Shown here piece after piece: positions 5,974 to 31,958 of a stretch of DNA of 37,360 bases. The DNA comes from Pelagibacteraceae bacterium. Its GTDB lineage: Bacteria; Pseudomonadota; Alphaproteobacteria; Pelagibacterales; Pelagibacteraceae. Numbering within the stretch: the first letter of the stretch is position 1; every line of letters begins with the position of its first letter. A program made the position numbers and the translations under genes. The stretch spans positions 1 through 37,360 of the forward strand of contig JAGFWA010000002.1 of the NCBI GenBank assembly GCA_017640245.1. Direction: 5' to 3'. A model generated the notes under the pieces. That model worked only from the letters and a program-made list of their open reading frames with translations. It was not told the origin of the DNA and ran no database searches.

Positions 5974-6555
5974 TTAACGAGGTGATTTTTTAGAGAGAAT
6001 TCTCTGAAGAGTTCTTCTATGCATTTTTAGACGTCTTGCAGTTTCTGAGACATTCCTATTACAAAGCTCAAATACTCTGTGGATATGTTCCCATTTTACT
6101 CTATCTGCTGACATGGGATTTTCTGGCGGTTTAGCCTTTAAATTTGGAGCAGCCAGAAGAGCTGATTCAACATCGTCAGCATCAACTGGTTTAGCCATAT
6201 AATCTAAGGCTCCAGCCTTAACTGCAGCGACAGCAGTAGGTAGATTCCCGTATCCAGTGAGCATGACTATCCTGCTATCTTTTCTGGTCTTATTAATCTC
6301 CTGAACCACATCTAATCCATTTCCATCCTCCAATCTAAGATCGACAAGGGCAAAATTTGGCTGAAAGGATCTTGCTAATTTTATAGCATCTACAACGGTT
6401 TTAGCATCTTTTACTTCAAATCCTTTCTTCTCCATGGCTCTAGATAGCCTGTTTCGAAAGGAATCATCATCATCTACAATGAGTAGAGTTTTGTCCTCAA
6501 AGTCAGATATTTTTAAACCTGAAGGTGTTTGCTTAATACCGCCCATACATTCCAT
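5974..6555 (-). CDS. regA: Redox response regulator RegA/ActR (PrrA)
   Basis: DNA-binding response regulator of the global redox system controlling respiration and energy metabolism in alphaproteobacteria; its kinase RegB is encoded at 9807-11087. The receiver domain has the acidic cluster IVDDDDS and phosphoacceptor Asp72 in ALVDLRLEDG. A Pro-rich linker (about residues 139-147) leads to a Fis-type helix-turn-helix whose NVSETARRLKMHRRTLQRIL is nearly invariant in RegA. A longer frame opens with TTG at 6570. I prefer ATG at 6555 (193 residues) because AAAGGA sits six bases upstream of it. It diverges from the polyamine cluster starting at 6687, and its stop is two bases from that of bioY. 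The family call is very secure. Confidence 0.95.
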   Translation of the reverse strand: MECMGGIKQTPSGLKISDFEDKTLLIVDDDDSFRNRLSRAMEKKGFEVKDAKTVVDAIKLARSFQPNFALVDLRLEDGNGLDVVQEINKTRKDSRIVMLTGYGNLPTAVAAVKAGALDYMAKPVDADDVESALLAAPNLKAKPPENPMSADRVKWEHIHRVFELCNRNVSETARRLKMHRRTLQRILSKKSPR

Positions 6556-6686
6556 ATAGCATCCTTTCAAAAATTTTCAAAGAGTCTAGCTGAATTATTT
6601 TCTTTACATAAATTGCAAAAACTATTAAACGCGGAATACAGAAGCTTTTTTTACAAAATTTTTTAGAAGCTTTATTGTGTAATTAA
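6556..6686. other. Divergent regulatory gap between regA and the polyamine cluster
   Basis: This non-coding gap must hold the start signals for both regA (minus) and the decarboxylase gene (plus). The nonamer AGAAGCTTT occurs twice in direct orientation (6640-6648 and 6665-6673, 25 bp apart), separated by an AT-rich spacer. I found no convincing -35/-10 pair and no clear RegA-type GCGNC-N5-GNCGC site. The only GC-rich patch is ACGCGG near 6630. Confidence 0.3.
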
Positions 6687-7882: not shown

Positions 7883-8929
7883 ATGAATAAAAAAAATGGT
7901 CCAAGTCTAGGACATAATAAAAAATCACTATTAAAATCAGAAGTAAAACATATTGATATTACTTCTTTTGACTCTAGAAAAATAATTGAGTCAATGAAAA
8001 AGATGTCATTTACATCAAGGGATACTGCAAAAGCTGCTGAAATTTATAATGAAATGATAAAAGATCAAAATTGTTCAATATTTCTTACAATTGCAGGTTC
8101 TACTTCTGCTGCAGGATGTATGAATTTATATTCTGATTTGGTGAAGTATAATATGGTTGATGCAATTGTAGCCACTGGAGCATCTATAATTGATATGGAT
8201 TTTTTTGAAGCTTTAGGATTTAAACATTATCAAGGCAACCAATTTCAAGACGATAGGATTTTAAGGGAAAATTATATTGACAGAATATATGACACTTACA
8301 TTGATGAAGAAGATTTACAAATTTGTGATAAAACTATATGTGAAATAGCAAACAAATTACCTCCAAAACCATACACGTCTAGAGAGTTTATTAAAGAACT
8401 TGGTAGGTATTTAAAAAAAAATGCAAAAAAGAAAGGATCATTAATTGAAGTTGCTTACGATTGTAATGTACCCATATTTTGTCCTGCTTTTACCGATAGT
8501 TCTGCTGGATTTGGATTGGTAATGCATCAAGAAAAAAATCCATCTAAACATATTACAATAGACTCGGTAAGGGAGTTTAGAGAGCTCACAGAAATTAAAC
8601 TAAAATCAAAATCCTCTGGGTTATTAATGATTGGCGGGGGTGTCCCAAAAAACTTCGTACAGGATACAGTAGTCTGTGCAGAGCTTTTAGGTAAAAAAGT
8701 TGATATGCACAAATATGCTATACAAGTAACTATCGCAGATACGAGAGATGGAGCGTGTAGCAGTTCTACTTTAAAAGAAGCAAGTTCTTGGGGTAAGGTT
8801 GATACTTCTAAAGAACAAATGGTTTTTGCTGAAGCCACGAGCGTTTTGCCTTTAATTGTAAGCGATGCGTATCATCGTAAATTTTGGCAAAATAGAGAAA
8901 GAAAAAAATTTTCAAACTTATTTGGATAA
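7883..8929 (+). CDS. Deoxyhypusine synthase-like protein (probable NAD-dependent polyamine transferase)
   Basis: Member of the deoxyhypusine synthase fold family, 348 residues. Visible family motifs are ATGASIIDMDFFEALGF, PIFCPAFTDSSAGFG (spermidine/NAD pocket), the GGGVPKN loop and EASSWGKV. In the last, Lys305 matches the human catalytic lysine (Lys329), with Trp303 and Glu299 also kept. Two residues differ by my alignment from memory: the loop histidine (human His288) is Asn257, and the spermidine-contacting Asp316 is Cys. There is an insertion of about seven residues between those sites. Bacteria lack eIF5A, so hypusine formation is unlikely. Placement between a decarboxylase and an agmatinase suggests aminobutyl transfer between polyamines, for instance homospermidine formation. 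Fold confidence is high; the reaction is inferred. Confidence 0.85.
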   Translation: MNKKNGPSLGHNKKSLLKSEVKHIDITSFDSRKIIESMKKMSFTSRDTAKAAEIYNEMIKDQNCSIFLTIAGSTSAAGCMNLYSDLVKYNMVDAIVATGASIIDMDFFEALGFKHYQGNQFQDDRILRENYIDRIYDTYIDEEDLQICDKTICEIANKLPPKPYTSREFIKELGRYLKKNAKKKGSLIEVAYDCNVPIFCPAFTDSSAGFGLVMHQEKNPSKHITIDSVREFRELTEIKLKSKSSGLLMIGGGVPKNFVQDTVVCAELLGKKVDMHKYAIQVTIADTRDGACSSSTLKEASSWGKVDTSKEQMVFAEATSVLPLIVSDAYHRKFWQNRERKKFSNLFG

Positions 8930-8932
8930 AAA

Positions 8933-9817
8933 TTGAATTATTTACCTAACAAACAAGGTTTTTTAGGAATTGAAAACAAATTCAAAATAAAGGAGAAAGC
9001 CGTCGTTGTTCCTTTTGGATTAGAAAAAACTGTCAGTTATGGTTCTGGAACAAAAAATGGGCCCAAAGAAATTATTAAAGCATCTCATCAAGTCGAATTA
9101 TTTGATGAGGATCTAAACTGCGAACCATATAAAAAAATTGGAATAAAAACGCTTAAGCCATTTTTAATTAAAAAAAAAATGAGTGATGCCTTAAAGCAAA
9201 TTTCTCAAATCAATGAGGCTTTATTAAAAAAAAATATTTTCCCAATGGTTTTTGGCGGAGAACATTCGATCACATCAGGATGTATTATTCCATTCGTCAA
9301 AAAATTTGACAAACTTTGTTTATTACATTTTGATGCGCATGCAGATTTAAGAGAAAGTTATAATGGAAATAAATTTTCTCATGCATCAGTTGTCAAGAGA
9401 TGCTTGGATCATAAAAATGTGAATGTTATATCTTTCGGAATACGAAATATATCTAAGGGTGAAATCTCTTTTTTAAAAAAAAATAAAAGAAAAATTAATA
9501 TTTTTTGGGCAAAAGACAAGAGGAAATGGGATCTCAGATTTTTTAAGAATTTAATAAAAAATAAGACAGTATATATCACATTAGACGTTGATGTTTTTGA
9601 TTCAAGTTTAATGCCAGCAACTGGAACTCCTGAACCCGGAGGCTTGTTTTGGGATGAAATAATAAAAATTATTAAAATCGCAGCAAAGCACTCTAAAATA
9701 GTTGGTGCAGATATAAATGAATTATCTCCAATAAAAGGATTTGAAACTTATAATTTTTTGGTAGCTAAATTAGCTTATAAAATTCTATCTTATAGATTTA
9801 TAAATTTTAAATTTTAA
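8933..9817 (+). CDS. speB: Agmatinase-family ureohydrolase
   Basis: Binuclear manganese ureohydrolase, expected to split agmatine (or a guanidino-polyamine) into urea and the free amine. The 294 residues show His111 in GGEHS, the DAHAD box (Asp134, His136, Asp138), DVD (Asp218, Asp220) and TGTPEPGG with Glu234. SHASV at 149-153 favours agmatinase over arginase. The start is TTG at 8933, four bases after the preceding stop, with GGA six bases upstream; the next in-frame ATG is about 80 codons further on, inside the domain. The 3' end overlaps convergent regB by 11 bases. The true substrate depends on the two upstream genes: with an ornithine decarboxylase upstream, an agmatinase would look redundant. 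Confidence 0.88.
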   Translation: MNYLPNKQGFLGIENKFKIKEKAVVVPFGLEKTVSYGSGTKNGPKEIIKASHQVELFDEDLNCEPYKKIGIKTLKPFLIKKKMSDALKQISQINEALLKKNIFPMVFGGEHSITSGCIIPFVKKFDKLCLLHFDAHADLRESYNGNKFSHASVVKRCLDHKNVNVISFGIRNISKGEISFLKKNKRKINIFWAKDKRKWDLRFFKNLIKNKTVYITLDVDVFDSSLMPATGTPEPGGLFWDEIIKIIKIAAKHSKIVGADINELSPIKGFETYNFLVAKLAYKILSYRFINFKF

Positions 9818-11087
9818 GATCATCAATTTTCCAAGTAATGGTGACAATGGCACCTCCTTGTTCTAAATTTGAAAACGTAAGTGTAGCTTTCTTTCTTTCA
9901 AGAAGAGTTTTTCCAATAAACGTTCCTAGTCCCAAACCAGCTTTTGAACTCAAATCTTTTGAGCTTGATGTTATATATGGTTGTCCAATAATTTTAAAAA
10001 CATCTTCGGGAAAACCTGGGCCATCATCTATAATATTTATTTTTATATGATTAGAACTTCTTTCTAAATTTACTTCTACTTTGTTATTAGAATATTTTAC
10101 TGCATTACCTATAAAATTTCTTATTCCGTATGTTATTTCAGACGATCTATCAATTATTAAACTTTCCTTAGCTTTTTCTAAATTTAAAAAAATTTTTTTT
10201 TCTGAAATTTCTTCAAAAGATTTTGTAATTTCTATAAGTAAATTTTGAATACTGACATCACTCATAAACTTATCGTCTACAATTTGATTTTTAGATATTT
10301 TTTTAAGTATATCGCTGCATCTTTTAGCTTGGCTTAATAGTAAATCGATGTCTTTTGAATATTTAGGGTCATTTTTAATTTCCTTTTTTAATTCTCTGGC
10401 TATAACTGTTATTGTAGAAAGAGGAGTTCCTAGAGAATGAGCCGCAGCAGCAGCTTGCTGACCTATAGATTCTAATTCATGTTCTTTAGCCAATATCAGC
10501 TCTAATTTATTTAAAGCTTTAGCTCTTTTTCTTGATTCAGTTCCAAATCGAGCACCAAAATAAGTTAAAAAAACTAATGCAATTATTACAGAAACTGGAA
10601 CTGCATATAAATAATATTCCGGAACATCAAAATGAAAATCGCCAGAACCTGGCAACGGGAAGTGATAAAATGTTAGTACTAACAAGACAATTACGGTAGT
10701 AGCAGATAATACAAAGGTGCTTCTTAAATTTAACAAGGTTGATGATATAATTGAAGGAATAACTAAAAAAATCACAAAAGAATTTTTTATTCCTCCAGTA
10801 AAAAACAAAAGTAAACTCAGCTGAAAAATATCATAAAGCAAAAATAAAACTGAATCCAAGTTACTAAGTTGGTTTTTTTTAAAATAAAATTGTAAAAAAA
10901 GATTAGTTAAAATTCCAAATAAAATAATTGTCGAGCAATAAAAAAGTGGAAGATCAAAATTTAAAGCAAAGTATACGGTATATACGGCTATTAATTGGCC
11001 AAAAATAGCCATCCATCTTAAAATAACCAGGGTTCTTTTCTCTAATTGAAAATCCTCTTCTGATTTGAAGAGATCAGACAAGTTCAT
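9807..11087 (-). CDS. regB: Redox sensor histidine kinase RegB/ActS (PrrB)
   Basis: Inner-membrane kinase for RegA, 426 residues. The N-terminal half holds about six membrane segments (residues 20-180). The quinone-linked heptapeptide, usually GGxxNPF, reads GGIKNSF (98-104). The H-box around AAAAAHSLGTPLSTI gives phosphoacceptor His217, and the redox cysteine is kept as Cys257 in QAKRCSDIL. The ATPase domain has NFIGNAVKYS, DDGPGFP and GLGLGTFI. Unusually, it lies four bases downstream of gyrB on the same strand, apparently as the last gene of the dnaA-dnaN-gyrB run, and is separated from regA by the polyamine cluster. Expression coupled to gyrase synthesis is an inference from spacing. Confidence 0.95.
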   Translation of the reverse strand: MNLSDLFKSEEDFQLEKRTLVILRWMAIFGQLIAVYTVYFALNFDLPLFYCSTIILFGILTNLFLQFYFKKNQLSNLDSVLFLLYDIFQLSLLLFFTGGIKNSFVIFLVIPSIISSTLLNLRSTFVLSATTVIVLLVLTFYHFPLPGSGDFHFDVPEYYLYAVPVSVIIALVFLTYFGARFGTESRKRAKALNKLELILAKEHELESIGQQAAAAAHSLGTPLSTITVIARELKKEIKNDPKYSKDIDLLLSQAKRCSDILKKISKNQIVDDKFMSDVSIQNLLIEITKSFEEISEKKIFLNLEKAKESLIIDRSSEITYGIRNFIGNAVKYSNNKVEVNLERSSNHIKINIIDDGPGFPEDVFKIIGQPYITSSSKDLSSKAGLGLGTFIGKTLLERKKATLTFSNLEQGGAIVTITWKIDDLKI

Positions 11088-14413: not shown

Positions 14414-15805
14414 TTAATCGTTTAGAATTATTGACTTTATCTCTTCAATATTTTTTCTCATTTGCTCATCATTTTTTGAAAGTTTATCAATCGTTTTCAC
14501 TGCATGGATAACGGTTGTGTGATCTCTATTTGCAAATTTTCTACCTATTTCAGGTAAAGATCTAGTTGTAAGTTTTTTTGCAAGATACATTGCAATTTGT
14601 CTGGGCCTGGCCAACGGACGTGATCTTCGCTGGGAAAGCATCTCATCTAGATTGATGCTAAAAAAATTTGATGTAACATTCTGAATTTTATCAATACTTA
14701 TAATTTTAATACTATTATAAACGTCTTTTAAAATTATCTTACAATCATTTATGTTTAGCGGTCTATTGCTCATTTTGCTAAAAGCTACAACTCGATTAAA
14801 TACACCAATTAATTCTCTTATATTTGACTTTGTGTCTTTAGCCAAATAGTCGACAACTTCGTCACTTAGATTCGGATGTTCTTTAAAAGATTTTTGAAAT
14901 TCTTCAATCTTTTTTCTTAAAATATTTAATTTCAAATCATAATCTGGTAAACCAATATCAACTACCAATCCTCCTGAAAGTCTTGATTTAATTCTGTCTT
15001 GTACTCTATCAAGTTTATTGGGCGGTCGATCAGAAGAAATTACAATTTGTGAACTTTTATCAAATAGGCTGTTAAATGTGTGGAAGAACTCTTCTTGTAA
15101 ACCTTCTTTTCCTCTTATAAATTGTATATCGTCAATTATAAAAACATTTGCTCTTCTAAAAAAATCCTTGAAACTTACCATTTCATTTTTTTTTATTGAC
15201 TTGATAAACTGATACATAAATCTTTCTGCAGAAATAAACATTACATTATTGTTACTACTTAATTCTAAACCTATTGCATTCATTAAATGAGTTTTTCCTA
15301 ATCCAACGCCGCCATAAATAAAAAGTGGGTTATATATAGATAGCTGGGTACATATTTTCTTGGCAGATAAATAAGCAATTTTGTTACTCTGACCCACAAC
15401 GAAATTATCAAAATTTAAATTATTATTTAATCTATTATAATTTAAAATTGAATCTTTCATCTCCATAATTTTATTTTTATTTGAATCTGGAGAGATAATT
15501 CCGTTTTCTAATTTTTCTTTTCCTACAATTTTAAATTCTATTCGATTTATACTTAATTTGTGTTTTTTTAATTCACTTAAAATTTTATCGGCATATCTTG
15601 AAGTTATCCAATCCCTAAAAAATCTTGTTGGCACCCCTAAAATAACATAATGATTATACTCTTTTACCAACAAAATATTTTTCAGCCAGCTCGAATAAAC
15701 TTCTGTGCCAAAAGATTTTTCAAAATCTTTTTGGATAATTTGCCAATTTAATACACTTTCTTCTGAAAGAGTGTTTGCATTAGTTTTTAAAGAAGTTTTG
15801 TCCAT
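14414..15805 (-). CDS. dnaA: Chromosomal replication initiator DnaA
   Basis: Initiator ATPase that binds DnaA boxes and melts the origin, 463 residues. The N-terminal domain I (about 18-95) interacts with helicase-loading partners. A short linker precedes the AAA+ core with Walker A GGVGLGKT (165-172), Walker B IDDIQFI and sensor motifs around DRVQDRIKSRLSGG. The C-terminal DNA-binding domain ends in the DnaA signature FANRDHTTVIHAVKTI. The gene leads dnaN and follows rpsT, an order common in alphaproteobacteria. The 245 bases upstream hold repeats with degenerate DnaA-box cores, so autoregulation is plausible. Confidence 0.98.
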   Translation of the reverse strand: MDKTSLKTNANTLSEESVLNWQIIQKDFEKSFGTEVYSSWLKNILLVKEYNHYVILGVPTRFFRDWITSRYADKILSELKKHKLSINRIEFKIVGKEKLENGIISPDSNKNKIMEMKDSILNYNRLNNNLNFDNFVVGQSNKIAYLSAKKICTQLSIYNPLFIYGGVGLGKTHLMNAIGLELSSNNNVMFISAERFMYQFIKSIKKNEMVSFKDFFRRANVFIIDDIQFIRGKEGLQEEFFHTFNSLFDKSSQIVISSDRPPNKLDRVQDRIKSRLSGGLVVDIGLPDYDLKLNILRKKIEEFQKSFKEHPNLSDEVVDYLAKDTKSNIRELIGVFNRVVAFSKMSNRPLNINDCKIILKDVYNSIKIISIDKIQNVTSNFFSINLDEMLSQRRSRPLARPRQIAMYLAKKLTTRSLPEIGRKFANRDHTTVIHAVKTIDKLSKNDEQMRKNIEEIKSIILND

Positions 15806-16050
15806 GTTTTAGTGAAAAAAAAATCTATTTTTATAGCTAATTTTTTTAATTTCAATATTTTTTTTAAAAAAAAATTAATTTTGGTTGTAGAACAATCGCC
15901 AAAAGAGAAAAGCAGTGCGACAATAATGTATTCAACTTTGGATACTAAAATGAATTCAACTTTGGATACTAATTAATCCATATTTAGTTTAGAATTCATA
16001 TTTGAAATTTATAAATTAGAAAATAAATAACAACTTTGAATTGATTACAA
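15806..16050. other. Origin-like or dnaA control region upstream of dnaA
   Basis: Between dnaA and rpsT. From dnaA outwards there is first a nearly pure A/T stretch (15820-15883), which includes eight T followed by nine A at 15858-15874. A more mixed patch follows (15884-15925), then a pair of 19-bp direct repeats (15930-15972). A degenerate half-copy containing CAACTTTG lies at 16031-16038. On the minus strand each repeat contains GTATCCAAA, matching the DnaA box TTATCCACA at seven of nine positions. An AT-rich unwinding zone next to DnaA-box-like repeats is origin architecture, but it could simply be the dnaA promoter operator. No gene is visible in it. Confidence 0.45.
15930..15972. repeat. 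Two 19-bp direct repeats upstream of dnaA
   Basis: The unit attcaactttggatactaa occurs identically at 15930-15948 and 15954-15972, a 24-bp period with a five-base spacer. The core caactttg recurs at 16031-16038, and a diverged relative (attcatatttga) lies near 15994. Perfect 19-mers are far from chance expectation in 245 bases. Function is inferred: binding sites for DnaA or a transcription factor. Confidence 0.85.
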
Positions 16051-16317
16051 CTAATTATTGATACGACTTATTCTTTTTGAAATTTTTGAAATTTTTTTTG
16101 AGAGATTTTTCTTTTTTACAATTCCTGTTTTGGCAATTTTCATTAACTCTGATTGAAATATCGGAAAATATTCCTTTATTTTTTTAGTATCTTTTTTTTC
16201 AATTAATTTGTGTATTTTCCTCAAGGCAGACTTGTACTTATTTCTCCTTAATTTATTGACCAATGTCTGTTTTTTTACTCGTTTAACCCTATTAATTGCT
16301 GATTTTGTATTTGGCAT
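16051..16317 (-). CDS. rpsT: 30S ribosomal protein S20
   Basis: Small-subunit protein binding the 5' domain of 16S rRNA, 88 residues, Lys/Arg-rich and fully helical as expected. The start MPNTKSAINRVKRVKKQ and the conserved alternation of basic helices (NKLRRNKYKSALRKI) identify it. The C-terminus ends in an Arg/Lys/Ser-rich tail. It lies upstream of dnaA on the same strand, diverging from ubiE, and has a promoter just ahead of its ATG. The initiator, directly followed by PNTKSA, is consistent with the family start. Confidence 0.95.
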   Translation of the reverse strand: MPNTKSAINRVKRVKKQTLVNKLRRNKYKSALRKIHKLIEKKDTKKIKEYFPIFQSELMKIAKTGIVKKKNLSKKISKISKRISRINN

Positions 16318-30794: not shown

Positions 30795-31958
30795 TTACTT
30801 TTCAAAAATACTAATTTTGTCAGTTTTTTCCCAGGAAAAAGAGCCGTCTGGTCTTGATTTTCTTCCAAAATGACCATACGCAGATGTACATTCATAAATA
30901 GGCCTGTTTAGAGAAAGCATCTCTCGAATGCCTCTGGGGCTTAAATCAAAATTATCTTTGATTAACTTTTGTACATGTTTTGATTTTTTCTCATCACCGT
31001 CAAAAAGATTAACATAAATTGACAAAGGTTTTGAAACTCCAATAGCGTACGCTAATTGTATTAAGCATTTGTTTGCAATTTTGGAGGCAACTACATTTTT
31101 TGCAACATATCTTGCGGCATAAGCAGCTGATCTATCAACTTTACTTGGATCTTTTCCAGAAAAAGCACCTCCTCCATGGGGCGCAGCTCCTCCGTAAGTG
31201 TCAACAATAATTTTTCTTCCAGTAAGACCTGTGTCTCCATCAGGACCGCCAATTATAAATTGGCCCGTTGGATTAACATAAAATTCATCTTCTTTTAATC
31301 CTGATAATAAATCTTTTGGAATTGATTTTTCTAAATATGGACGGACAATTTCTTTAACTTGAGACTGATCAATTTTTGAGGAATGTTGAGTTGAAATTAC
31401 AACAGAAGTTACTTTAGTTGGTTTCCCATTTTCATACATCATCGTAACTTGGCTTTTTGAATCTGGTTCTAATTTGTCTGCAATTCCTTTTTTTCTATCT
31501 ATAGCCATTAATTCTAAAATTTTATGCGAATAATAAATTGGTGCTGGCATCAAAACTTCTGTTTCGTCACATGCGTATCCAAACATTATACCTTGATCTC
31601 CGGCTCCATCATCTTTGTTCCCTTTCGAGTCAACTCCCATTGCTATATCTGAAGATTGAGAATGTAAATGAACATCAATATTACAATTTTTCCAGTGAAA
31701 TCCTTTTTGTTCGTATCCTATGTCTTTAATACAGCTACGAACCTTTTGTATAAGTTCATCTTTTTTAATTTCGGGTCCTCTTGTTTCCCCGGCTAAAATA
31801 ACTTTATTTGTTGTTGTTAAAGTTTCACATGCAACTCTTGAATAAGGTTCTTGGGCAAGATAAGTATCAACAACCATATCTGAAATACGATCACACACTT
31901 TGTCTGGATGTCCTTCAGAAACTGATTCGCTTGTAAAAAAATAACTATTTGATTTCAT
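30795..31958 (-). CDS. metK: S-adenosylmethionine synthetase
   Basis: Makes SAM from methionine and ATP, 387 residues. Landmarks are [14 protein letters not shown] near the N-terminus, the [12 protein letters not shown] hexapeptide region, [14 protein letters not shown] and [22 protein letters not shown], with the K+ and Mg2+ sites. The SAM it makes serves UbiE and MiaB in this window. It overlaps the lnt stop by one base (TAATG) and is followed by the intrinsic terminator at 30712-30737. No SAM-riboswitch-like leader is possible because lnt lies directly upstream. Confidence 0.98.

Follow-up and report, generated by a model that had tools for sequence, protein, structure and literature searches.

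The upstream region of dnaA in a Pelagibacteraceae genome carries two identical 19-mers, and the question raised by this locus is what such a repeat pair represents. In many other bacteria, replication origins lie next to dnaA and carry repeated DnaA boxes, and an initial annotation of the locus had suggested either a replication origin or a dnaA autoregulatory operator. The window analysed here is the whole stretch of 37,360 nucleotides. Among named organisms, uncultured Pelagibacteraceae (SAR11) are closest to it, with a DnaA identity of up to 85%.

Gene setting and the repeat pair

The genes on either side of the gap and the two repeat copies are as follows:

14414 to 15805, minus strand: dnaA (Pfam Bac_DnaA, E 2.9e-58)
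15930 to 15948: repeat copy 2, nearer dnaA, reading TTAGTATCCAAAGTTGAAT on the minus strand; no counterpart in the 24 aligned genus siblings
15954 to 15972: repeat copy 1, on the rpsT side; corresponds in the alignment to a single genus-conserved RGTTGAA site
16051 to 16317, minus strand: rpsT, ribosomal protein S20 (Pfam Ribosomal_S20p, E 2.1e-14)

The repeats sit in the 245 nt that separate rpsT from dnaA, both of which run leftward. The rpsT gene had been overlooked in the initial annotation, which had placed the repeats at a switch of gene orientation. As rpsT (minus strand) intervenes before ubiE, the repeats instead lie within a co-directional leftward pair, and the switch is found at about 16.32-16.39 kb. 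The almost pure A/T tract at 15820-15883 is present as described; A/T-rich gaps are common in the host genome, and the repeats do not flank the tract, since both copies are located on one side of it.

The sequence ATTCAACTTTGGATACTAA occupies 15930-15948 and again 15954-15972, the two 19-mers being identical with a period of 24 bp. No other exact repeat of at least 19 nt within 300 bp exists in the whole window, and 200 dinucleotide shuffles yielded none. Within the host draft genome (905,828 bases in 91 contigs, estimated to be 75.8% complete), exact copies of the 16-nt core of the repeat are found at these two places only. As first described, the repeat is therefore exact, and it is unique in the draft genome and far beyond chance. 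On the minus strand both 19-mers contain GTATCCAAA, which matches the DnaA-box consensus TTWTNCACA at seven of nine positions; further copies of GTATCCAAA occur in the window at 31575 and 34376. The same element had been ascribed to a half-copy at 16031, which lacks GTATCCAAA, shares CAACTTTG with the repeat and nothing more, and belongs to a separate CAA-N7-TTG dyad.

Comparison with related genomes

The genus of the window (g1) is represented by 25 of its 31 genomes; the fetched loci of G007, G009, G016, G022, G023 and G030 hold no dnaA. A second genus (g4) contributes 23 loci. For counts of boxes, spacings and duplications, a set of 27 more distant SAR11 loci was used, labelled g3 in these counts and consisting mostly of named contigs of unchecked genus. 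Two loci were left out, L091 for want of upstream sequence and L220 as belonging to another genus.

The search for the repeat in sister genomes, proposed at the outset as a check, shows the pair to be confined to the window's genome: with up to one mismatch, the core was found in the 31 genus genomes as the window's pair and as one site with a single mismatch elsewhere in G004, and nothing more. When 24 siblings are aligned, it is the copy on the rpsT side that corresponds to their one conserved site. The two halves of the element differ in this respect. The RGTTGAA half is conserved (24 of the 25 g1 gaps, with RGTTGTA in the remaining one), whereas the DnaA-like GTATCCA half is not: sibling 9-mers aligned to GTATCCAAA agree with the DnaA-box consensus at three to eight of nine positions, with eight of nine at the aligned place in the closest sibling (L005). 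As judged from this alignment, a single site conserved in the genus has been duplicated in tandem, with a 24-bp period, in the window's lineage alone, and the identity of both copies over 19 nt suggests that the duplication is recent.

The gap contains further elements in addition to the repeated one:

15827 to 15855, minus strand: weak promoter-like site (TTGAAA, 17 nt, AAAAAT) inside the A/T-rich tract, just upstream of dnaA
15883 to 15912, minus strand: conserved block ending TCTACAACC, whose 5' half is tandem-duplicated in other genus members
15978 to 15987: CYANATNTAG block, CCATATTTAG on the plus strand, in 23 of 25 g1 and 20 of 23 g4 gaps (shuffle mean 0.1)
16031 to 16043: CAA-N7-TTG dyad CAACTTTGAATTG, 7 nt after the rpsT stop, holding the half-copy of the initial annotation

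Several of these blocks are conserved across the two genera g1 and g4, far above shuffled sequences: the dyad is found in 25 of 25 g1 and 18 of 23 g4 gaps and TACAAC in 25 of 25 and 23 of 23, respectively, where the sequences share ancestry and the counts are not independent. Scored with a position weight matrix whose training set excluded the window's site and included those of G018 and G014, the rpsT-dnaA dyad sites of three genus genomes obtained the top three scores in 616 kb. Promoter-like sites are about as frequent in the region as in shuffles (7 versus 5.9); at the one upstream of dnaA, TTGAA.. is conserved in the sibling alignment. A single operator present in several copies was considered and rejected, as the 19-mers did not appear with the top-scoring sites of the gap under the dyad matrix. 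The blocks may hence not share one regulator.

Search for the replication origin

The DnaA protein of the window retains RDHTTVIHA near its C-terminus, which we take to be the signature for reading DnaA boxes, so that canonical boxes are expected at an origin. Counting matches to TTWTNCACA with up to one mismatch, the 25 genus gaps contain nine box-like 9-mers, none of them exact, versus 36.3 in shuffles, a deficit that derives from related sequences and thus from events that are not independent. In the 27 more distant SAR11 loci, boxes with one mismatch are slightly above shuffles (63 versus 52.4) and exact boxes number 10 versus 2.4. The latter excess counts against a no-box statement that would cover all SAR11.

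According to the available part of PMC1914354, the origin in Caulobacter and Rickettsia is located between hemE and a COG1806/DUF299 gene. As to these marks of an oriC, the gap is bordered by rpsT and dnaA in place of hemE and COG1806/PF03618, and it has an A/T-rich stretch and no cluster of DnaA boxes. Among chosen relatives, all 13 searched for hemE and all 17 searched for PF03618 carry the gene in question; the two genes are adjacent and divergent in 11 of the 13 relatives with both mapped, the exceptions being G036 and G043 (g7). In these two genomes, PF03618 is located about 71-73 kb from dnaA, although hemE is not adjacent. The distance between hemE and dnaA amounts to 60-86 kb in two g1 genomes, seven g3 genomes and G054, and to about 70 kb in G034 if that record is circular. 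DnaA-like boxes are over-represented in the gap on the hemE side, both in seven g3 sequences (43 versus 13.3 shuffled) and in two g1 sequences (9 versus 3.6 shuffled). Neither gene was found in the window genome's own draft at its 75.8% completeness, and the origin argument is therefore drawn from relatives.

Cumulative GC skew has a local turn inside the window. Raw and four-fold GC skew were rejected as origin locators, since both tracked gene orientation in the sampled stretches; they were replaced by T/A skew at four-fold sites, corrected for gene strand. When genes are split by strand, a weak replication-linked T/A skew is seen at these sites. Within the hemE-dnaA interval of seven genomes, the pooled middle segment agrees in sign with the dnaA side rather than with the region beyond hemE; this applies to both genera, although the g1 value is small (-0.024 +- 0.018). 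The pooled change point of these relatives falls at 0.12 of the hemE-dnaA distance, counted from hemE, and every bootstrap places it closer to hemE. Taken individually, G061 alone favours the dnaA side (change point 1.15), G018 leaves the matter undecided, with 54% of its bootstraps closer to hemE, and G055 is weak (65%); for the two g1 genomes pooled, 74% of bootstraps are nearer hemE. The skew check proposed for an origin at 15.8-16.1 kb gives it no support: the turn in the window follows gene orientation, and the pooled switch, located in relatives, lies near hemE. In SAR11 relatives, the origin is likely located at hemE/PF03618, 60-86 kb from dnaA.

Recurrent duplication in the gap

Spaced direct repeats, defined as 16 nt with up to three mismatches, occur in nine of the 25 g1 gaps (two of these, L022 and L023, are no duplications, the dyad there merely resembling the RGTTGAA site), in one of 23 g4 gaps and in 19 of the 27 more distant gaps. 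The corresponding shuffle means are 0.25, 0.50 and 0.70, and among 64 control gaps (150-450 nt, four genomes of this family) three had such a repeat. The duplicated blocks vary by lineage: in the window it is the site described above, in other g1 members a TTTCATCTTCAACGAT-like block, and in the distant set a CACAATCCTAGATTTT-like block. Owing to shared ancestry, these counts correspond to few independent duplication events, at least four by our reading of the alignments. In the L112 gap, the dyad itself is tandem-duplicated (GACAATTCTAAGTTGA and GACAATCCTAAGTTGA, 25 bp apart).

Candidate regulators

The available part of PMC9223101 describes NtrX as binding CAA-N2-5-TTG at the S. meliloti dnaA gene and gives GCA-N9-TGC as the sequence proposed for NtrX in R. 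sphaeroides. Pelagibacter is reported to be without CtrA (PMC2877005, in the part available). The window's own genome encodes an NtrX-like protein whose best NCBIfam match is NtrX (E 3.8e-162), with 540 bits, below the cut-off of 600. The conserved dyad CAA-N7-TTG is equivalent to CA-N9-TG. The shorter CAA-N2-TTG occurs three times in the window's gap, repeats included, and in five of the 25 g1 gaps, the conserved spacing being N7. NtrX is at most a candidate for a regulator that would read the gap blocks.

We note further genes and sites that concern regulation in this group. The redox two-component proteins RegA (ActR/PrrA family) and RegB are encoded apart from each other in the window (5974-6570 and 9807-11087, both minus strand), and both are above their NCBIfam cut-offs. 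GcrA (PF07750) is present in 26 of the 31 genus genomes (for example G018:C1:335824-336255) and in all 15 of the other family genomes tested; it was not found in the window's own draft (75.8% complete). This presence contrasts with a 2010 survey which, in its available part, places Pelagibacter in a cluster set apart by lacking GcrA and CcrM (PMC2877005). In the one gcrA upstream region that was readable, CTACATATAG, an instance of the CYANATNTAG block, is found at G018:C1:335802, some 12 nt ahead of the gcrA start. The only other intergenic site in 616 kb that fits the strict dyad form CAAYTN3ARTTG is at G018:C1:113378, just upstream of a gene that is bactofilin-like by eye. The product of the window gene at 7883-8929 (plus strand) exceeds the NCBIfam threshold of 1,9-bis(guanidino)-5-aza-nonane synthase, a relative of deoxyhypusine synthase, and adjoins a lysA-type decarboxylase gene.

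Explanations of the repeat pair

We consider it probable, from comparison of sequences, that the gap is an upstream regulatory region of dnaA in SAR11 and not an origin, that its RGTTGAA stretch has been duplicated in tandem, and that its blocks are bound by a regulator other than DnaA. The CAA-N7-TTG dyad, CYANATNTAG, RGTTGAA and TACAACC are its conserved blocks; these would be bound by a transcription regulator other than DnaA, for which NtrX is one candidate; and in the window's genome the second copy of the RGTTGAA stretch, arising from duplication with a 24-bp period, would alter occupancy by the regulator and hence dnaA expression.

A recent 24-bp tandem duplication in a fast-changing, A/T-rich gap may instead have arisen by neutral slippage and have no regulatory effect. 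The restriction of the pair to one of the 31 genus members searched for the core speaks for such an event, as does the identity of the copies over 19 nt, which suggests recency; and in a draft genome, the duplication could be neutral or an artefact. We nevertheless judge neutral slippage unlikely, if still to be reckoned with, as the duplicated stretch includes a site that the genus conserves, and different lineages have different blocks of this gap duplicated, compared with few of the control gaps. The role proposed for DnaA itself, namely that it represses dnaA by binding each copy at GTATCCAAA or at a variant box, appears improbable. It draws on a box match of seven of nine that occurs twice and on the closer match in L005; yet there are just two boxes, both from one duplicated site, the aligned sibling 9-mers fall to three of nine in the half that is not conserved, and box-like 9-mers in the gap are rarer than in shuffles. 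Of the autoregulatory operator in the initial annotation, the dnaA operator as such is supported in outline, since the gap holds several sequence-conserved elements of which one lies inside the repeated element, while DnaA acting via GTATCCAAA is unsupported because the siblings do not keep that half.

An origin at the repeats is very unlikely. The A/T-rich tract, the neighbouring dnaA, dnaN and gyrB genes and the local turn of cumulative GC skew would all suit an origin next to dnaA, but the turn follows gene orientation, the gaps of the genus are poor in boxes, and in seven relatives taken together the strand-corrected skew turns near hemE, although G061 alone favours the dnaA side; hemE/PF03618 and a cluster of DnaA-like boxes are found 60-86 kb away. 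Just as unlikely is that the blocks act in RNA, as a terminator of rpsT or as a structured dnaA leader. The dyad does directly follow the rpsT stop and further blocks are located between it and the dnaA start; against this, RNAalifold returned no consensus fold (energy 0.00 for g1 and g4), so that the blocks are more likely DNA sites than RNA elements. The dyad hairpin has a mean of -0.5 kcal/mol in g1, with about four T in the next 12 nt; in g4, eight of the 12 loci scored as lacking a dyad in this test start right at it and escaped only because the pattern required two preceding bases. Rfam gave no match at family threshold (one sub-threshold sRNA match inside dnaA was ignored), and no terminator-like site was found in the region. 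Two specific structures were rejected: the dyad as intrinsic terminator, which is without a stable hairpin and T run, and a GTTG/CAAC stem in the gap, which by eye breaks in many members.

Implications

The finding is an ordinary one, made where little has been studied: one conserved block upstream of dnaA has recently been duplicated in tandem. What deserves attention is that duplications recur in the gap, and which regulator is involved. The analysis provides a small, testable set of conserved dnaA-upstream sites in a group whose cell-cycle control has been little explored. A wider proposition, which we regard as doubtful, is that in SAR11, for which the absence of CtrA is reported, dnaA might be run by a compact operator array (read by NtrX or another regulator) that evolves via repeated duplication of short sites, the window's repeat being an early case. 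If true, replication initiation could be tied to nutrient state through this array in marine heterotrophs that rank among the most abundant.

The analysis also corrects a natural and probably wrong reading, as the likely origin of SAR11 relatives is at hemE/PF03618 and not at dnaA. The position of the origin bears on growth-rate estimates and on the choice of genome start points: in the available parts of the respective papers, SAR11 genome alignments were started at DnaA (PMC12421898) and GRiD puts dnaA-bearing fragments at the origin (PMC7852909). A literature search on the SAR11/Pelagibacter origin, dnaA promoter and NtrX, covering titles and the beginnings of abstracts, with subscription papers and predicted-origin databases outside its scope, found no account of the gap or of a hemE-side SAR11 origin. 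Neither is described in the available parts of PMC13198564, PMC13349992, PMC9223101, PMC1914354, PMC2877005, PMC7852909 and PMC12421898.

Comparison with known systems

The gap resembles dnaA-adjacent origins, such as that stated for gammaproteobacteria in the available part of PMC1914354, in its position upstream of dnaA, its A/T-rich tract and its short repeats; it differs from them in having no consensus DnaA boxes and no skew support in relatives. With the Caulobacter and Rickettsia origin, as described in that part of the same source, SAR11 relatives share the hemE-COG1806 gene pair with DnaA-like boxes in between, whereas the repeats are not part of this junction and lie 60-86 kb from it. 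A parallel to the proposed regulatory region concerns the NtrX-bound dnaA promoter of S. meliloti, as far as the available part of PMC9223101 describes it. The spacing of the NtrX site is N2-5 there versus N7 in the conserved dyad of the SAR11 gap, where the site is a predicted one; both are alphaproteobacterial dnaA upstream regions with CAA-Nx-TTG, and an NtrX-like protein is encoded here as well.
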